Below are positions 3,286 through 11,006 of a stretch of DNA of 42,468 nucleotides, in pieces. Position numbers and translations under genes: made by a program. Positions within the stretch are counted from its first letter, which is position 1. Every line of letters begins with the position of its first letter. The notes under the pieces were generated by a model, which saw nothing but the letters and a program-made list of their open reading frames with translations, was not told where the DNA came from and did no database searches. The DNA is from a bacterium (GTDB lineage: Bacteria; Myxococcota_A; UBA9042), in NCBI GenBank assembly GCA_030425545.1, contig JAUIAC010000018.1, forward strand, positions 1 through 42,468, in the 5' to 3' direction.

Positions 3286-4638
3286 TCAGGCGGAGCCGTC
3301 TCCCAGCTCGCGCCGGGTCTGTGCCGGGTCGATCCACCACAGCAACGCCAGCGGCGCCGTGGCTTGTAGGAGCGCGGCCGCCAGGTAGAGCCCCTGGTAG
3401 TCCAAGGCCTCGTCCAGCGGCCCGGCAATCCAGTGTCCCACCGTCGTCGACAGGTTCATCATCGCCATGTAGGCCGTGAACTGAGTCGCCGCCACGCGGG
3501 GCCAGCTGACCGCCATGAACATCGCGAAGAGGCCGACGCTCATCGTGCTCTGCAGCAGGGGCTCCAGCAGGATCAGCGCCACGGGGAGGGGCTGGATCAT
3601 CCCCGCTGAGCCGACCGCGTCCGCGGCTCGCCAGGGCAGGGCCACAGCGAAGGTCCAGTAGGGCTCCAACAGCGCGAACACGAGCCACACGGCCGCGAGC
3701 CCGAGGGTGCCCGCCGCGACGATGCGCTTGGCGCCGAAGCGGTCCGCCAGCCAGCCGCCCGCGACGCTGCCGAGGAGCCCCAACCACACCGCCCAGCCGT
3801 CCCACTGTGCCTTGGCCTCCGCCGCCCAGCCCAGGTCCTTGGTGAAGAAGACGGCCCCCACGACGCTCAGCACGCCAGCGCCCAGGTAGGCCGTCAGCGC
3901 CAGCGCGACCGCGGCGAGGGTCGTTCGCAAGCTGAAGGCCTTGAGCAGGTCGCGAAAGAGGCTCGCGGCCGACGAGGCCACGGCCTGAGTCGCCTGGGAC
4001 GCCTTGCCGGCCGACCACGGCAGCAGCCGCTCCCCCTCACGCTCTCGCAGGAGCAGGGGAAAGGCCATGATCCCCAGGAGCGCCGCCGTTTGCACCACCA
4101 GCGCGGTGCGCATGCCAGAGCCCGCCATCACGGTCGCGAGGCCCGCGCCGCCGACCCAGCCGCCGACGTACTTGCTGCCGTACATCAGCCCGTTGGCGGT
4201 GCCGCGCTCCTTCTCGGTGAGCAGATCCACCGCCAGGGCGTCGACGGACACGTCCTGCAGCGCGTTGAAGCAGTTGTGGACGAAGATCATCCAGCCCAGG
4301 GCCGTGATCCCCTGGGTGAGATCGGGGATCAGGATCATCGCGCCGATGGTCAGCGCCATCATCCCCTGGGCGAGCAGGATCCACGGCCGTCGGCGCCCCA
4401 TAGCGCGAAAGCCGAGGGTGTCGATGACCGGGCCGGCCGCCCACTTGAAGGTCCAGGGCAGGGTGGCCAGGGCCAACACGCTCCCCACGTCGCTGCTGGA
4501 CAGGCCGTGCTCGGCGAGCCAGGGCGGCAGGGCGATGGCGACGAAGCCCCACGGGATGCCCTGCGCCAGATAGAGCACGCACAGCGTGACCAGTCGCAGG
4601 CGCGGGCTGGTAGCGAGAGTCGGCACGTGGAGCCTCAC
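3286..4638 (-). CDS. AmpG-like MFS transporter
   Basis: A 450-residue protein with about 12 hydrophobic segments. It starts with LCVLYLAQGIPWGF and has AxPPWLAEHGLSSSDVG, GRRRPWIL and the helix containing HNCFNALQDVSVDALAVDLLTEKERGTANG in the order typical of the AmpG/acetyl-CoA-carrier (SLC33) branch of the major facilitator superfamily. AmpG imports anhydro-muropeptides during peptidoglycan recycling, but SLC33-like relatives carry other substrates, so the cargo is not certain. The start taken is a GTG; a second GTG lies four codons later. It lies 84 bases downstream of the alpha/beta hydrolase on the same strand and may be the last gene of the peroxiredoxin-hydrolase-transporter operon. 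Confidence 0.85.
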   Translation of the reverse strand: MRLHVPTLATSPRLRLVTLCVLYLAQGIPWGFVAIALPPWLAEHGLSSSDVGSVLALATLPWTFKWAAGPVIDTLGFRAMGRRRPWILLAQGMMALTIGAMILIPDLTQGITALGWMIFVHNCFNALQDVSVDALAVDLLTEKERGTANGLMYGSKYVGGWVGGAGLATVMAGSGMRTALVVQTAALLGIMAFPLLLREREGERLLPWSAGKASQATQAVASSAASLFRDLLKAFSLRTTLAAVALALTAYLGAGVLSVVGAVFFTKDLGWAAEAKAQWDGWAVWLGLLGSVAGGWLADRFGAKRIVAAGTLGLAAVWLVFALLEPYWTFAVALPWRAADAVGSAGMIQPLPVALILLEPLLQSTMSVGLFAMFMAVSWPRVAATQFTAYMAMMNLSTTVGHWIAGPLDEALDYQGLYLAAALLQATAPLALLWWIDPAQTRRELGDGSA

Positions 4639-4722: not shown

Positions 4723-5553
4723 TCAGCGCGGCAGGCCGTCGACCAGCAAGCGCAAGAGCCCGGCGGGGTTGTCTGCGTGGAGCCAGTGCCCGGCGTCGGC
4801 GAGCTCCAGGTGACGCGCGCGCCCGGCGCGGTGGAGCGCGTCGAGCCGAGCCGTGTCCGCCGCCGTCCATCGCTCGCTGCGGGCCCCCCGGACCAGGACG
4901 TGCTGCGCCCCCTGGCGTGGGAGTGAGAAGGCGTCCCACAGGTCACGGGCGAAGTAGTCGGCCAGCAGCGCCTCGACCAGATCGAGGTCGAAGCGCCACA
5001 CGTAGCCGCCGTCGGCGCGGCGCAGGTTGGTCGTCATCCACTGCCCAAGGGCGCTGCTGAACCCCCGGCGCCGCAGGGCGTCCGCGACGTCGGCGCGCTC
5101 GGCCAGCGGCATGGAGATGTCGCGTAGCGCGGCCACGACCGACTCGACCTCGGTGGGCGCGTCGGAAGCCGAGCCGTCCCGCGCACCCAGGGGGGCGTCG
5201 AGCACCCAGAGCTGCCGCACGGGCCACGTGCGAGCGACCTCGGCCATGACCTTGCCGCCGAACGAATGCCCGACGACCAGCGGCGGCGACAGGTCGGGGC
5301 CGAGCAGGGCTGTCGCGAGCGCGACGACGTCGTCGGCGCAGGCCCGCACCGTCGGCGCCCCTGGCAAGCCGTGGCTCTCGCCGTGACCGCGCAGGTCCAG
5401 CGTCACCACGCACACGTCCGGACGCTCACGCGTGAGGCGCCGCGCGAAGCTGCGCCAGTTGTTGCGCGAACCCAGGATCCCGTGCGCGAGCAGCAGCACC
5501 ACGTCGGCGTCCTGCGGCGCCGCGCCCAGGAGCGTGTGCGCGAGCTGGGTCAT
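4723..5553 (-). CDS. Alpha/beta hydrolase (YbfF-like)
   Basis: A 276-residue single-domain alpha/beta hydrolase without a signal peptide. The oxyanion-hole region is LAHGILGSRNNW, strand 4 is TLDLRGHGES, the nucleophile is Ser97 in VVGHSFGGK and the catalytic His is His256 in DAGHWLHADNP. This set resembles the YbfF/ABHD11 group of cytosolic esterases acting on acyl-CoA or small acyl esters. Its ATG overlaps the stop of the upstream peroxiredoxin as ATGA, so the two are translationally coupled and probably work together. The pairing with a thiol or selenol peroxidase hints at detoxification of oxidised acyl compounds, but that is inference only. Confidence 0.87.
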   Translation of the reverse strand: MTQLAHTLLGAAPQDADVVLLLAHGILGSRNNWRSFARRLTRERPDVCVVTLDLRGHGESHGLPGAPTVRACADDVVALATALLGPDLSPPLVVGHSFGGKVMAEVARTWPVRQLWVLDAPLGARDGSASDAPTEVESVVAALRDISMPLAERADVADALRRRGFSSALGQWMTTNLRRADGGYVWRFDLDLVEALLADYFARDLWDAFSLPRQGAQHVLVRGARSERWTAADTARLDALHRAGRARHLELADAGHWLHADNPAGLLRLLVDGLPR

Positions 5554-6215
5554 GGGGTCCTCCCCGGTGGCGCCGGTTGGGCAGCGCTGGCTGGCCCGGC
5601 GCCGACGCGACGCAGCACCTCGGCCGTGGTCAAGCGCTTGCGATAGTTGTCTGTCACGTGCCGCCAGCGCACCCGCCCGTCACGCGCGACGAGCACCAGC
5701 GCCGGCCACGCGATGTCGTTGCCCGGGTCGTAGACGCCGTAGGCCTTGATGACCTTGCGTAGCGGGTCCGCGAGGACTGGAAACGTCAGCCCGAGCCGGT
5801 CTCGCAGACCGCGGTTGGTCTTCACCGGGTCGCTGACCACGGCCACGACGCGGATCTGGGCGGCGTCGAGCTGCGCGAGGTGCTGCTGCAGCTCTCCGAG
5901 CTGCCTCCTGCAGTGCGGTCACCAGTGCCCGCGGAAGAAGACCAGCAGGGTCTCCCGGTCGTGCGCTCCGCCGACGCGGACCGACTGACCCGCGGTGTCG
6001 GCCAGCGTCGCCACGGGAGCCAGGGCCCGCGGCGCCACCACGCGGGTGTCGATGCCCGCCGGGGGCCTCGTGCGCCGCGCCTCGGGCGGGTAGCCCGCCA
6101 GCTTCAACAGCCCGCCACAGCCCACCACCAGCGCGGCAGCGACCGCGACGCCCCAGCGTCGGCGTGCGCCGAAGCGAGAGGAGCGCGCGTCAGGGGACCT
6201 CGTCTTGGTGTTCAT
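5550..6215 (-). CDS. Selenocysteine-containing peroxiredoxin, lipoprotein
   Basis: A 221-residue AhpC/TSA-like peroxiredoxin read through an in-frame TGA (5921-5919) as selenocysteine 99. Before the TGA the frame ends LLVFFRGHW; after it the same frame continues PHCRRQLGELQQHL, then VVAVVSDP, GLTFPVLADP, KAYGVYDP and IAWPALVLVARDGRVRW, all standard for this family. The TGA sits exactly where FRGHWCPxC proteins have the peroxidatic Cys, giving a UxxC redox motif with Cys102. The start ATG at 6215 has GAGG upstream and gives a signal sequence ending VVGC (Cys33), a lipobox-like site, so the enzyme is probably membrane anchored and periplasm facing. A GTG at 6275 is an alternative start. A SECIS-like hairpin follows the TGA. 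A sequencing error or a pseudogene is less likely, since nothing else in the frame is damaged. The stop overlaps the hydrolase start by ATGA. Confidence 0.85.
5888..5921 (-). promoter_or_regulatory. UGA selenocysteine codon with bacterial SECIS-like hairpin
   Basis: On the minus strand the TGA occupies 5921-5919. Fourteen bases later GCAGCTC (5904-5898) pairs perfectly with GAGCTGC (5894-5888) around a three-base loop GGA (5897-5895). The loop begins 22 nt after the TGA and has G at its first two positions. Known bacterial SECIS elements have a small apical loop with a G in its first two bases, about 16-37 nt after UGA, bound by SelB. A weaker lower stem (CTGC with GCAG) may extend it. The hairpin lies inside coding sequence, as in other bacterial selenoprotein genes. 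Confidence 0.75.
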
Positions 6216-6292
6216 GGCGCCTCGCGGCGGGTCGCCGCGCCTCCGAAACCGACCGTTGTGGTCGTCTGGTGTCACGGGTATACCTCCGCCCC

Positions 6293-7006
6293 ATGCAGAG
6301 CTCCACGCACAACTCGACCAAACCCCTCGTCATCGGCATCGCGGGCGGCACCGGCAGTGGCAAGACCACCATCGCCCGCAAGATCGTCGGTGAGTTCCGC
6401 TCTGAGGACGTGACCCACGTCCAACACGACGCCTACTACCGCGACCAGCGTGATCTCAGCGCCGAGGAGCGCGCGCGGGTCAACTACGACCACCCCGACA
6501 GCCTCGACAACGCGCTGCTCGTGGACCACCTCGACGAGCTCCTCGCGGGGCGCGCTGTCGGCTGCCCGACCTACGACTTCGTCACCCACAGCCGCCTGCA
6601 GCGGACGACGCTGCTTCGGCCGACGCCGATCGTCATCGTCGAGGGCATCCTCATCTTCGCCGACCCGCGCTTGGTGAGCCGCATGGACATCAAGCTCTTC
6701 GTCGACACGCCGGCCGACATCCGCATCTTGCGCCGGATTCGCCGGGACATGGAGAAGCGGGGCCGGACCTTCGACGAGGTGCGTCAGCAATACTACGCCA
6801 CCGTTCGGCCGATGCACCTGGCCTTTGTCGAACCGTCGCGTCGCGTCGCCGACCTCATCATCCCTGAGGGCGGCAACAACCGGGTGGCCATCGAGGTCAT
6901 CGTCGACCGCATCCGTCGCGAGCTCGTCAGTCGCTCGGACGCGGAGCGGCGCGCCAGCGACCCCGAAGGTCAGGACCTGAGCGAGGCGCGTCGACCCAGG
7001 GCTTGA
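6293..7006 (+). CDS. udk: Uridine kinase
   Basis: This 237-residue protein is a full-length uridine/cytidine kinase, which phosphorylates uridine and cytidine to their monophosphates in pyrimidine salvage, in the cytosol. The P-loop GGTGSGKT lies at residues 18-25, followed by VQHDAYYRD, NYDHPDSLDNALL, PTYDFVTHSR, VIVEGILIF and the lid region RRIRRDMEKRGR. The tail after the kinase fold is a short, charged extension. The start is the ATG at 6293; upstream codons in the open frame belong to the region divergent from the peroxiredoxin gene, whose start lies only 77 bases away. Confidence 0.93.
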   Translation: MQSSTHNSTKPLVIGIAGGTGSGKTTIARKIVGEFRSEDVTHVQHDAYYRDQRDLSAEERARVNYDHPDSLDNALLVDHLDELLAGRAVGCPTYDFVTHSRLQRTTLLRPTPIVIVEGILIFADPRLVSRMDIKLFVDTPADIRILRRIRRDMEKRGRTFDEVRQQYYATVRPMHLAFVEPSRRVADLIIPEGGNNRVAIEVIVDRIRRELVSRSDAERRASDPEGQDLSEARRPRA

Positions 7007-7048: not shown

Positions 7049-10000
7049 CTAGTAGTAGCCGTTCGAGATCTGCACCTGGAAGTTGCTGCACACCGGACCC
7101 ACGCCCGTCTTGTAGTGGACGTTGATGTAGTAGTACGCCGACTGGCTCTTGCACTGGTTGTAGCCAGGGATGCCGGGGCCCGTGGAGCCGTTCTTGGTGG
7201 TGCACTTACACTCACCGCCCTTGACGGGGTAGGGCGTGTAGTACTTCGACCCCTTGCGCTTGCCGACGAACGACTTCGGTCCGGAGGTCGAGCCGTAGAA
7301 GTCCACCTTGTAGCGGTGCTCCGTCTCGTCCTTACAGATAAGGCTCGAGCCAGAGCAGCTGCCGCGGTAGACGTCCATGCGGAAGACGTCGCCCGGGTTC
7401 TGCGTGAAGCGGATGCGCACGTCGTAGTTGTCACACGCGTTGTAGTCGGTCGAGTCCTGCATGTAGACTCGGTACCACTGCCCGGTCTCGCCCGGCATCA
7501 GGTTGCCGGACACGTAGGTCAGCTTCTTGTCGATGTCCTTCATGGTCGACAGGATGATCGGCTTGGAGCACGACCCGCCAGCGCCGCCGTAGTTGCCGTC
7601 CGCGCCGCACTCGCAGCCCGTGCTGTATTTCTTGTCGAGGTCGAAGTAGCCGTACTTGCACTGGTTGATCGCGCATGAGGGCGACTTGCAGGTGACGGAC
7701 GCGTTCTTCACCGCAGCGCAGGACGCCGAGGCGCCGTCGTCCTTGACCTTGTCGCAGTCGTCGTCGACGCCGTTGCACAGCTCCTTGGCCTTGGGCTTGA
7801 TCGAGGCGTTGCCGTCGTTGCAGTCGCCCGACAGCTTCGCCGTGTGCTTGGTGGCCGCGTCGCCGTTGCACAGGCAGCGTGGGCCGCCGGTGCCGTAGCC
7901 GTCCTTGTCGCCGTCGTAGAAGTACTGCTGGCACGAGAGGCTGTTCTCCTCGTCGGTCTTGCCGTCGCAGTTGTCGTCGATGCCGTTGGTCACGCAGTTG
8001 TCCTGCACGCCCGGCTTCACCGCGCCGCTGGCGTCGTCGCAGTCGCCGGCCTTCACCGCGGTGTACTTCAGGGTGGTGTTCGCCTTGCACAGGCACAGCG
8101 GCTTGCTGCCCTTGGCGCCGTAGCCGTCCTTGTCGCCGTCCTTGTAGAAGGGCGAGCAGCCGATGGCGTTGACGTCGTTGTTGTCGTTGTTGCAGTTGTC
8201 GTCTCCCGAGGTCAGGCACGACTCCTGCTTGCTCGGGTTCACGCTGCCGTTGAGGTCCTCGCAGTCGCCGCCCTTGGTGGCCGTCAGCTTCTGCGGGATC
8301 TTCGGCGCGCACATGCACACCGCGGGCTTGGTCTTGTCGCCAAAGCCGTCGCCGTCCGCGTCGGTGTAGAAGTTCAGGCAGCCCTTGGCGCCGACGTTGT
8401 TGGGGTCGTCGTCGCAGTTGTCGTCGTAGGGCGTCGCGCACGACTCCTTGGCGTTCGGGTGCACGTTCTTCTTCTTGTCGTCGCAGTCGTCGGCCTTGGG
8501 GGCGGTGTACTTGCCGACCACGTCCGCAGCACACAGGCACTTGGCGGTGGTGTCTTCCTTGCCCGCGCCGTCGCCGTCGCCGTCGAAGTAGAAGGCCTTG
8601 CACTTGAGGGCGTCCTGCTCCTCGGCCTTGCCGCTACAGTTCTCGTCGGTCGCCTTGGCGTCGCAGATCTCCTGTGCCCCCGGGTTCACCGACTTCACGT
8701 CGTCGTCGCAGTCGCCGCCGCCCTTGGGGCACGCCTTGGGCTTGCCCTTGGTGGTCAGCTTCTCGTCGCAGTAGCCGTCGCCGTCCCCGTCGCAGGACTC
8801 GTCGGTGGCGCCGCTGCAGTTGTTGTCGAGGTCGTCGCAGAGCGACTCGTCCTTCGCGTTGGAGAAGGTGGCGTCGTGCTTGAGGTACACGCTGTCGTTG
8901 CAGAGGCCCCAGGCGCCCTTGACACACAGCGCGGCGGGCTTCTTCGCGCCCTTGCACACGCCCTTCTGGTTCTCACAGGTCGGCGCGTTCTTGGTGAGGT
9001 CGGCCTCGTCCGCGGCGTCGGTCTTGCCGTCGCAGTCGTCGTCCACGCCGTTGCACAGCTCGTCGGCCACCGGTGACACGGTCTTGTCGCTGTCGTCGCA
9101 GTCGCCCTTGCCCTTGGCGCACACCTTGGGCTGCCCCACGACCACGGCCTGGGCGTCGCACACGCCGTCGCCGTCCTTGTCGCAGCCGTTGTCCGTGACG
9201 CCGTCGCAGTCGTCGTCGACGTCGTTACACAGCTCCGGCGCCTTGGGGTACACCGCCTTGTTGGCGTCGTTGCAGTCCGGCCCTGCGACCTTGCACACGC
9301 TCGGCGTGCCCACCACCGTCATGTCCTTGTCGCAGTGGCCGTCGCCGTCGTCGTCGCAGCCTTCGTCGACCTGCCCGTCGCAGTCGTTGTCCAGGTCGTC
9401 GCAGACCTCGGTCGTGGCCTGGCTCTGGCCTCCGTCGGGATCCGTCGAGCAGGCGACCCCCTTGGCGTTGGCCGCGCAGACGACCACGCCGGCCCCGCAC
9501 GCGCCGATGCCGTCGCAGGGCGCACCCACGGCCAGCTTGGCGCTGCCGTAGACGAAGGACTCGTCGGTCAGCCCGTCACAGTCGTTGTCCTTGCCGTCGC
9601 AGGTGGTCTCCGACACGTCTTCGTAGTTCGGCACCGCGCTGTATTCGCAGTTCCACTGGCCGATCTTGCAGCTCGCGGCGACCTTGTCGGCGGTGCACAC
9701 GCCCGTCAGCTTGCAGTCCGAGTCGGTCACCGTGAGGTTCTCGTCGGTCTCGCCGTTGCAGTTGTCGTCGATGAAGTTGCAGGTCTCCTTCTTCGACTTG
9801 CCGCTGTTGTCGCAGGTGGCGCCGCTGCCGTCGGCCTTGCACACCACCAGGCCGCCCGTGCACGCGCCGGAGCCGCAGGCCGCGCCGAGCGCCTTCATCA
9901 CCCCGCCGTCGTTGAAGCCGTGACCTTCGTCGGTGTCGCCGTCGCAGTCGTCGTCCTTCATGTTGCACAGCTCGACCACCGCGGGCACGGCCGTGCAGGC

Positions 10001-10801
10001 GCCCAGGCCAGCGCTGGTGCACACGCGAGAGCCCCAGCAGGTGCCCTTGTCGTTGTGCACCGAGCACGTCGTCGCGGCCTTCTCGAGCTTGCCCCAGTCG
10101 TTGCACTTGCACGTGGTGCCGACGTCGGGGACGCACTGCTGCGTCTTTCCCTCGGCCAGGTCGAGCTCCTTGCAGCTGTAGCCGGTCGGGCATCCGACGC
10201 CGTCGCCACAGGGCGCGGTGCAGAACGAGCCGACGGTGCCGCCCGCGCCGTCTTGCATCGGCAGGCAGCGCGCCGCGCCCTTGGTGATGCCGACGTGATC
10301 GCAGTCACTCTCCTGCTCACAGGGCTGGCACAGCGTGGTGTCCGTGGGCGCGCAGAGGTAGACCAGGTCGCCGCTCTCGCCGGTCTGGACGCACTTGAAG
10401 CCACCCGGGCAGCTCTCCAGGCAGGTCTTCGTGCAGATCTTGCCGTCCGGCCCCTGGAGGCAGTAGCCGGTGTCGCACTCGTCGTTGTCCTTGCACGGGC
10501 AGTTGAACCCGCCGCTGCCTTCGCACTGGCTGCTGCCCGTGGTGTCGCCGCCCGCGTCGCCAGCGGCCACGTCGGGCGCCGACGTGTCCGTGCCCGTGGT
10601 GTCCGCGCCGGTCGTGTCCTGAGCCGCCGTGTCGGGCTGGAAGAGGATGTCGCCGCTGGCGGTGTCCGTCACCACGTTGCCCGTGTCGGCCTGGACGTCG
10701 GGCGTCGTGTTGCCTGCGTTGTCTTCCGCAGGGGTGCCGCAGCCCGTGGCCAACGCCAAAGCACAGATCATGGACAGACTGGTGAGGTGCCGAAGCATCA
10801 T
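7049..10801 (-). CDS. Giant MopE-like Cys/Asp-rich repeat lipoprotein
   Basis: I start at the ATG at 10801, which follows AGGAGGAA and gives a signal sequence ending LALATGC, a good lipobox; an in-frame start further upstream lacks these. The 1250-residue product has an Asp/Thr-rich linker (about residues 25-85), then Cys-rich EGF-like segments, then about twelve repeats of the type ELCNGVDDDCDGKTD, often followed by DGDGDG-type acidic loops. This is the MopE/SpiDaP metal-binding-like repeat (PF11617), known from copper-binding surface proteins and common in Myxococcota. The last 200 residues form a non-repetitive, Tyr-rich domain ending NGYY with tandem TAG stops. It is probably a surface-anchored, Ca- or Cu-binding, disulfide-rich protein; partner and ligand are unknown. 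Confidence 0.88.
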   Translation of the reverse strand: MMLRHLTSLSMICALALATGCGTPAEDNAGNTTPDVQADTGNVVTDTASGDILFQPDTAAQDTTGADTTGTDTSAPDVAAGDAGGDTTGSSQCEGSGGFNCPCKDNDECDTGYCLQGPDGKICTKTCLESCPGGFKCVQTGESGDLVYLCAPTDTTLCQPCEQESDCDHVGITKGAARCLPMQDGAGGTVGSFCTAPCGDGVGCPTGYSCKELDLAEGKTQQCVPDVGTTCKCNDWGKLEKAATTCSVHNDKGTCWGSRVCTSAGLGACTAVPAVVELCNMKDDDCDGDTDEGHGFNDGGVMKALGAACGSGACTGGLVVCKADGSGATCDNSGKSKKETCNFIDDNCNGETDENLTVTDSDCKLTGVCTADKVAASCKIGQWNCEYSAVPNYEDVSETTCDGKDNDCDGLTDESFVYGSAKLAVGAPCDGIGACGAGVVVCAANAKGVACSTDPDGGQSQATTEVCDDLDNDCDGQVDEGCDDDGDGHCDKDMTVVGTPSVCKVAGPDCNDANKAVYPKAPELCNDVDDDCDGVTDNGCDKDGDGVCDAQAVVVGQPKVCAKGKGDCDDSDKTVSPVADELCNGVDDDCDGKTDAADEADLTKNAPTCENQKGVCKGAKKPAALCVKGAWGLCNDSVYLKHDATFSNAKDESLCDDLDNNCSGATDESCDGDGDGYCDEKLTTKGKPKACPKGGGDCDDDVKSVNPGAQEICDAKATDENCSGKAEEQDALKCKAFYFDGDGDGAGKEDTTAKCLCAADVVGKYTAPKADDCDDKKKNVHPNAKESCATPYDDNCDDDPNNVGAKGCLNFYTDADGDGFGDKTKPAVCMCAPKIPQKLTATKGGDCEDLNGSVNPSKQESCLTSGDDNCNNDNNDVNAIGCSPFYKDGDKDGYGAKGSKPLCLCKANTTLKYTAVKAGDCDDASGAVKPGVQDNCVTNGIDDNCDGKTDEENSLSCQQYFYDGDKDGYGTGGPRCLCNGDAATKHTAKLSGDCNDGNASIKPKAKELCNGVDDDCDKVKDDGASASCAAVKNASVTCKSPSCAINQCKYGYFDLDKKYSTGCECGADGNYGGAGGSCSKPIILSTMKDIDKKLTYVSGNLMPGETGQWYRVYMQDSTDYNACDNYDVRIRFTQNPGDVFRMDVYRGSCSGSSLICKDETEHRYKVDFYGSTSGPKSFVGKRKGSKYYTPYPVKGGECKCTTKNGSTGPGIPGYNQCKSQSAYYYINVHYKTGVGPVCSNFQVQISNGYY

Positions 10802-11006
10802 CGCGCTTCCTCCTGCAGTGGCCCGGATTTGGGCGCTGGCGGACGGACGTCGCGGACGATAGCAGATCCGCTCCTGTGCGTGCACGTGCAATCGCGTGCC
10901 TGGGAGCGGCCTGGACGGGCAGGGCCACGCGTTGGACCGGAGCCGGCGCGGCTCGAGCGCCGGCGCCGCGCGCCAAGCCGGAGCGCGCGGCGTGCACGCG
11001 GCGCCG

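Follow-up and report, generated by a model that had tools for sequence, protein, structure and literature searches.

Gene organization at the locus

The window analyzed here is a contig of 42,468 nucleotides (JAUIAC010000018.1, assembly GCA_030425545.1; GTDB lineage Myxococcota_A, UBA9042). On its minus strand, an ATG at position 6215 opens a frame that extends to a TGA at 5552-5550 and contains a single internal TGA at 5921-5919 (Table 1). This internal TGA, codon 99, lies within the sequence FFRGHW-U-PHC and is followed by 122 further codons before the terminal stop, as an earlier note on this DNA had described. Under translation table 11 the frame is split into two ORFs (5919-6275 and 5550-5846), in keeping with that note's expectation that gene callers would break up the gene. 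The N-terminus of the read-through protein is basic and hydrophobic and is followed by a lipobox (VVG-C33), then by a short linker that leads into an AhpC/TSA domain. The protein's match to AhpC-TSA (PF00578; 5.7e-24) covers residues 66-184 and crosses the TGA, confirming that homology continues beyond this codon. A scan of the window for further TGA codons of the UxxC/CxxU type returned 520 pattern matches, of which those listed were inspected by eye.

Table 1. Features of the candidate selenoprotein locus, in window coordinates
Feature	Position	Strand	Evidence or remark
MFS transporter	3286..4638	-	next downstream gene; conserved neighbor in G001
Alpha/beta hydrolase	4723..5553	-	4-nt overlap of its start with the selenoprotein stop; neighboring homologue in G001 (60.5% identity)
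Candidate selenoprotein gene (Prx-like UxxC lipoprotein, 221 aa, predicted Sec at codon 99)	5550..6215	-	stop TGA 5552-5550
SECIS-like hairpin GCAGCUC-GGA-GAGCUGC	5888..5904	-	agreement with bSECIS constraints, covariation, energy
In-frame TGA, predicted U99 of U99-P-H-C102	5919..5921	-	TGA shared by 13 homologues at this codon; TGC or TGT in further ones
Signal peptide and lipobox VVG-C33; Cys33 (codon 6119-6117) is the predicted lipidation site	6117..6215	-	sequence, aligned homologues
Uridine kinase (divergent neighbor)	6293..7006	+	conserved in G001, 79% identity

The stop codon of the candidate selenoprotein gene and the ATG of the hydrolase gene share the sequence ATGA (5553-5550), a 4-nt overlap that agrees with the proposed operon and suggests that the read-through frame couples translation of the two genes. 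The order MopE-repeat protein, uridine kinase (udk), selenoprotein, hydrolase and MFS transporter is conserved in the congener G001, and none of these neighbors was found beside the gene within the 5-6 kb examined in G009 and G019. A scan for promoters and terminators found nothing. The MopE-repeat protein (window positions 7049-10891, 1280 aa) carries several MopE-type copper-binding motifs (PF11617, 9.9e-62) and stands beside uridine kinase in G001 as well.

Conservation of the in-frame TGA

Homologues were sought in 90 related genomes with stop codons read through, and the residue at codon 99 was read from the DNA. TGA occupies this position in 13 homologues from other contigs or genomes, with homology on both flanks. 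The closest is from G001, of the same genus as the window genome (56% identity), and another is from G009, of the same family (45%); further examples come from G038, G036 (two genes), G039, G043, G031, G089, G061 and G084, and TGA is also present in paralogues from the window's own genome (G000:C862) and from G001 (G001:C236). Together, the TGA-bearing homologues, whose frames are open on either side of the codon, represent eight families within the phylum. The alignment with Cys homologues that had been proposed as a check bears out the assignment, as the TGA column contains TGC or TGT in G019 (same family), G075 and G052. Across a 17-sequence alignment, W98 and C102 are invariant and position 99 varies only by exchange of Sec and Cys. 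The gene thus shows the pattern by which bacterial selenoproteins are recognized: an in-frame UGA, Cys or Sec in the corresponding column of homologues, and sequence similarity extending to either side. The family tree is weakly resolved, with only one of its 14 inner branches well supported, and is too weak for counting switches between Sec and Cys.

The two ORFs obtained under table 11 would also be expected if the TGA were a true stop, in which case a short N-terminal polypeptide would be made and a thioredoxin-fold C-terminal fragment would be initiated independently. However, the TGA splits the UxxC active-site motif, the Prx domain covers both halves, the downstream ORF begins well inside this domain, and the Cys homologues keep one uninterrupted frame, which together render termination at codon 99 highly improbable.

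The paralogues from the window genome (L044 3094-3903 in G000:C862) and from G001 (L049 2084-2893 in G001:C236) represent a second UxxC selenoprotein, in which an N-terminal hydrophobic multi-helix region is joined to a Prx-like domain bearing the motif FFRGSWUPYC or FFRGGWUPYC, respectively.

A SECIS-like hairpin downstream of the TGA

The earlier note had described a perfect 7-bp hairpin with a GGA loop after the TGA, and this description is accurate: the stem is exact, the loop is 3 nt and the folding energy is -11.5 kcal/mol. The stated distance of 22 nt applies to the loop, which begins at nt 22 (a spacing of 21 nt), but not to the hairpin itself, whose first stem base is nt 15. Published constraints for bSECIS elements require a loop of 3-9 nt, a stem of 4-16 bp, G in the first two loop positions, a spacing of 16-37 nt and an energy of -7.5 kcal/mol or lower (PMC13188914). 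With its spacing of 21 nt, GGA loop, 7-bp stem and energy of -11.5 kcal/mol, the window hairpin conforms to all of them, so that the geometry proposed for it holds.

Taken alone, the window hairpin is weak evidence. At that place, 4% of synonymous-codon shuffles of the single window sequence match its stem length, longer segments around it have competing folds for which single-sequence folding statistics are not significant, and hairpin energy compared with codon shuffles sequence by sequence was not discriminating. Comparison among homologues is more informative. The same hairpin position is kept in 9 of the 13 TGA homologues, giving ten Sec genes including that of the window, with loops of GGA, GGU, GGC or GUC. 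At the exact geometry these ten sequences sum to 70 bp, far beyond chance, as 5000 synonymous shuffles averaged 19 bp and never exceeded 52, and their covariation score is 0.289 versus 0.078 when shuffled (0 of 500) and at most 0.086 with the partner slid, although the shuffle total and the covariation figures are somewhat flattered because the ten genes were chosen for shared geometry. Changes on both sides of the stem, i.e., compensatory changes, occur at four of the eight hairpin pairs among these genes. A second geometry, with a 5-nt loop beginning 16 nt after the TGA, is common to the paralogues L044 and L049 and to L027. Neither geometry suits L016 well.

The closest Cys gene, that of G019, forms zero base pairs at the geometry of the window hairpin. 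The peptide encoded by the hairpin, QLGEL, is common among the Sec proteins and is not found in the aligned Cys proteins, a distribution that fits selection acting on the RNA.

Selenocysteine machinery in the host and its relatives

A search for selA, selB, selC and selD had been proposed as a check on the selenocysteine reading. The window genome is a draft of 945 contigs that is 92% complete. It contains a tRNA-Sec that scores 76.9 bits, where the cut-off is 47, and is confirmed by ARAGORN; a SelB over the cut-off (244.5 bits) with a SelB winged-helix domain; and a SelA over the cut-off, whose gene is divided between two contig ends with 205 nt in common at 99.5%. Thus, selC, selB and selA were recovered in the genome itself, but selD only in its congeners, as neither the family model nor the congener's protein revealed a selD in the 92%-complete draft. 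A match in C753 (20.3 bits, model positions 83-170, within a 682-aa frame) fell below the cut-off and was rejected. Among the 31 genomes tested for selD, 27 carry it over the cut-off, including all three congeners, and 26 carry a tRNA-Sec over the cut-off. The gap in the window draft is most simply explained by a missing contig. For three class relatives that possess the Sec gene (G031, G038 and G039), whose genomes are incomplete, no tRNA-Sec match was obtained, and SelB is over the cut-off in all three.

Two further observations concern this machinery. The selD gene itself contains an in-frame TGA in G001 (L054 1405-2559, HGAGUACK), G003:C411, G009:C896, G031:C45 and G089:C219, such that SelD of several relatives is probably a selenoprotein, while most family members are without an internal stop. 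In the window genome, the tRNA-Sec model also gives four matches below threshold within 2 kb (G000:C415 6074-7910), which probably represent a cluster of ordinary tRNA genes.

These results also bear on whether the gene could be dead, its Cys codon having mutated to TGA or having been misread in sequencing to leave two nonfunctional halves. TGA is a single base away from TGC and TGT, and the window comes from a genome in 945 contigs. Nevertheless, independent genomes carry this TGA as well, which in practice excludes a sequencing error. A pseudogene is left with very little probability, because the codon recurs in 13 homologues from eight families within the phylum whose frames are open before and after it, the hairpin covaries and the Sec machinery is present. 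Both this explanation and that of two separate ORFs were therefore rejected on the basis of the conserved TGA with its covarying hairpin and the domain spanning the TGA. The same lines of evidence favor the selenocysteine reading put forward in the earlier note, and codon 99 is, with high probability, decoded as selenocysteine.

Active site, fold and class

The TGA had been placed at the peroxidatic Cys site of a peroxiredoxin, and this placement proved incorrect. In sequence alignments with solved peroxiredoxins, including AhpE and archaeal members, the Thr/Ser of TxxC is matched by U99 and the peroxidatic Cys by C102. The canonical signature PxxxT(S)xxC is absent from RGHWUPHC, in which R95 occupies the Pro position and U99 the Thr position. 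An AlphaFold2 model with a confidently predicted domain (mean pLDDT 85.9) had Bcp4 as its best PDB match (TMt 0.85), followed by AhpE, and all structure neighbors listed for it are peroxiredoxins. Hence the term peroxiredoxin holds for the AhpC/TSA fold but not for the PxxxTxxC signature, whose absence makes it a fold assignment. The predicted motif U99-P-H-C102 is a thioredoxin-like UxxC.

The Prx-like UxxC selenoprotein family had been catalogued by 2005. The window protein combines the two features of this class, an AhpC/TSA domain (PF00578, 5.7e-24) and a thioredoxin-like UxxC motif, and by domain and motif the predicted protein belongs to it, in accordance with the earlier note. With the known members it has in common the UxxC in place of TxxC or TxxU, a bSECIS directly downstream of the Sec codon and the existence of both Sec and Cys versions; it differs in being a predicted lipoprotein, in forming a lineage-specific orthologue group, and in its location beside genes for an alpha/beta hydrolase and an MFS transporter. 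The group is listed as a Prx-like thiol:disulfide oxidoreductase, UxxC/UxxU (PMC13188914, Table 1).

Comparison with other selenoproteins and peroxiredoxins reveals both shared and differing features. Its best NCBIfam match is the SelL/SelL-related redox protein model NF040769 (1.1e-12), which all 17 aligned homologues match, but its score of 48 bits is far under the curated cut-off of 120 bits. The window protein has UxxC, whereas SelL proper carries UxxU. Because no NCBIfam model reaches its cut-off for the window protein, the Sec residue may well be missed by standard annotation. PrxU (NF040737, TxxU) likewise combines a peroxiredoxin fold with an active-site Sec, but the predicted Sec of the window protein precedes the PrxU position by three residues, and the match is poor (E 0.015, 15 bits versus 270). 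The fold is also that of AhpE and Bcp-type peroxiredoxins (PDB 1xxu and 3hjp; TMt 0.79-0.85), of which the Thr and Pro of PxxxTxxC are replaced in the window protein. These reference enzymes have neither Sec nor a lipid anchor. Distinct TxxU-type, PrxU-like Sec peroxiredoxin candidates with the motif DWTPTUSxEVP were observed in relatives within the phylum (L030 in G065 and L035 in G056).

The same Sec protein might instead act as a true peroxidase, in which C102 attacks the peroxide and U99 resolves, rather than as a general thiol/disulfide oxidoreductase. Such an activity is consistent with the position of C102, which aligns with the peroxidatic Cys in AhpE and in Bcp-type peroxiredoxins from archaea, and with the exclusive presence of peroxiredoxins among the listed structure neighbors. 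Against it, the PxxxT part of the signature is missing, with R95 for Pro and U99 for Thr, and UxxC Prx-like proteins are classed as thiol:disulfide oxidoreductases (PMC13188914, PMC1088965). A dedicated peroxidase is a real possibility, albeit one that we regard as somewhat improbable.

A predicted lipoprotein orthologue group

The lipoprotein signal noted previously is apparent in the sequence, where a basic n-region and a hydrophobic stretch precede VVG-C33, judged by eye against the lipobox pattern [LVI][ASTVI][GAS]C. An aligned GC followed by G[YF]PPEARR or GYPPNPMR occurs in G001, G009 and G019. A class-wide search gave four matches above 230 bits, all from one family (G000, G001, G009 and G019), comprising three Sec genes and one Cys gene. 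The predicted lipoprotein form with a G[YF]PPEARR-type linker is thus a small orthologue group, and it is this putative form, in four genomes of one family, that is new relative to the known UxxC kind. The window protein perhaps represents a lipoprotein subgroup within a known kind of selenoprotein. A more far-reaching proposal is that this group, with its lipobox, G[YF]PPEARR linker and F[FY]RGHWU[PS]HC motif, constitutes a distinct envelope-anchored Sec enzyme that partners the translationally coupled alpha/beta hydrolase and in which Sec at the peroxiredoxin Thr site would resolve the product of C102 attack. We consider this unlikely; if true, it would entail a division of labor between Sec and C102 that is not described for canonical peroxiredoxins.

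Proposed mechanism and significance

The explanation that best accounts for these findings, and one that we consider very probable, is that the gene encodes an AhpC/TSA-fold Sec lipoprotein, produced by SelB- and hairpin-dependent decoding of codon 99 and serving as a UxxC redox enzyme of the envelope. Bound to the hairpin a short distance past the TGA, SelB would bring Sec-tRNA(Sec) to codon 99. The 221-residue product would then undergo export and lipidation at Cys33 and remain anchored at an envelope membrane. The UxxC pair, U99 and C102, would stand at the beginning of the active-site helix of the thioredoxin fold and cycle between a selenol/thiol and a selenenylsulfide, which is the best-supported mechanism for the predicted protein. 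Envelope disulfides or peroxides would most likely be reduced in this cycle, with a thiol reductant as the donor. Both the envelope location and the redox cycle are features that we infer from the sequence.

This locus provides a well-supported selenoprotein that is split by standard gene calling, in a lineage in which tRNA-Sec and SelB are widespread. The natural exchange of Sec and Cys within an apparent single orthologue group, of which the G019 member has Cys and is without the hairpin, makes this group suitable for testing the benefit of Sec at an envelope redox enzyme.
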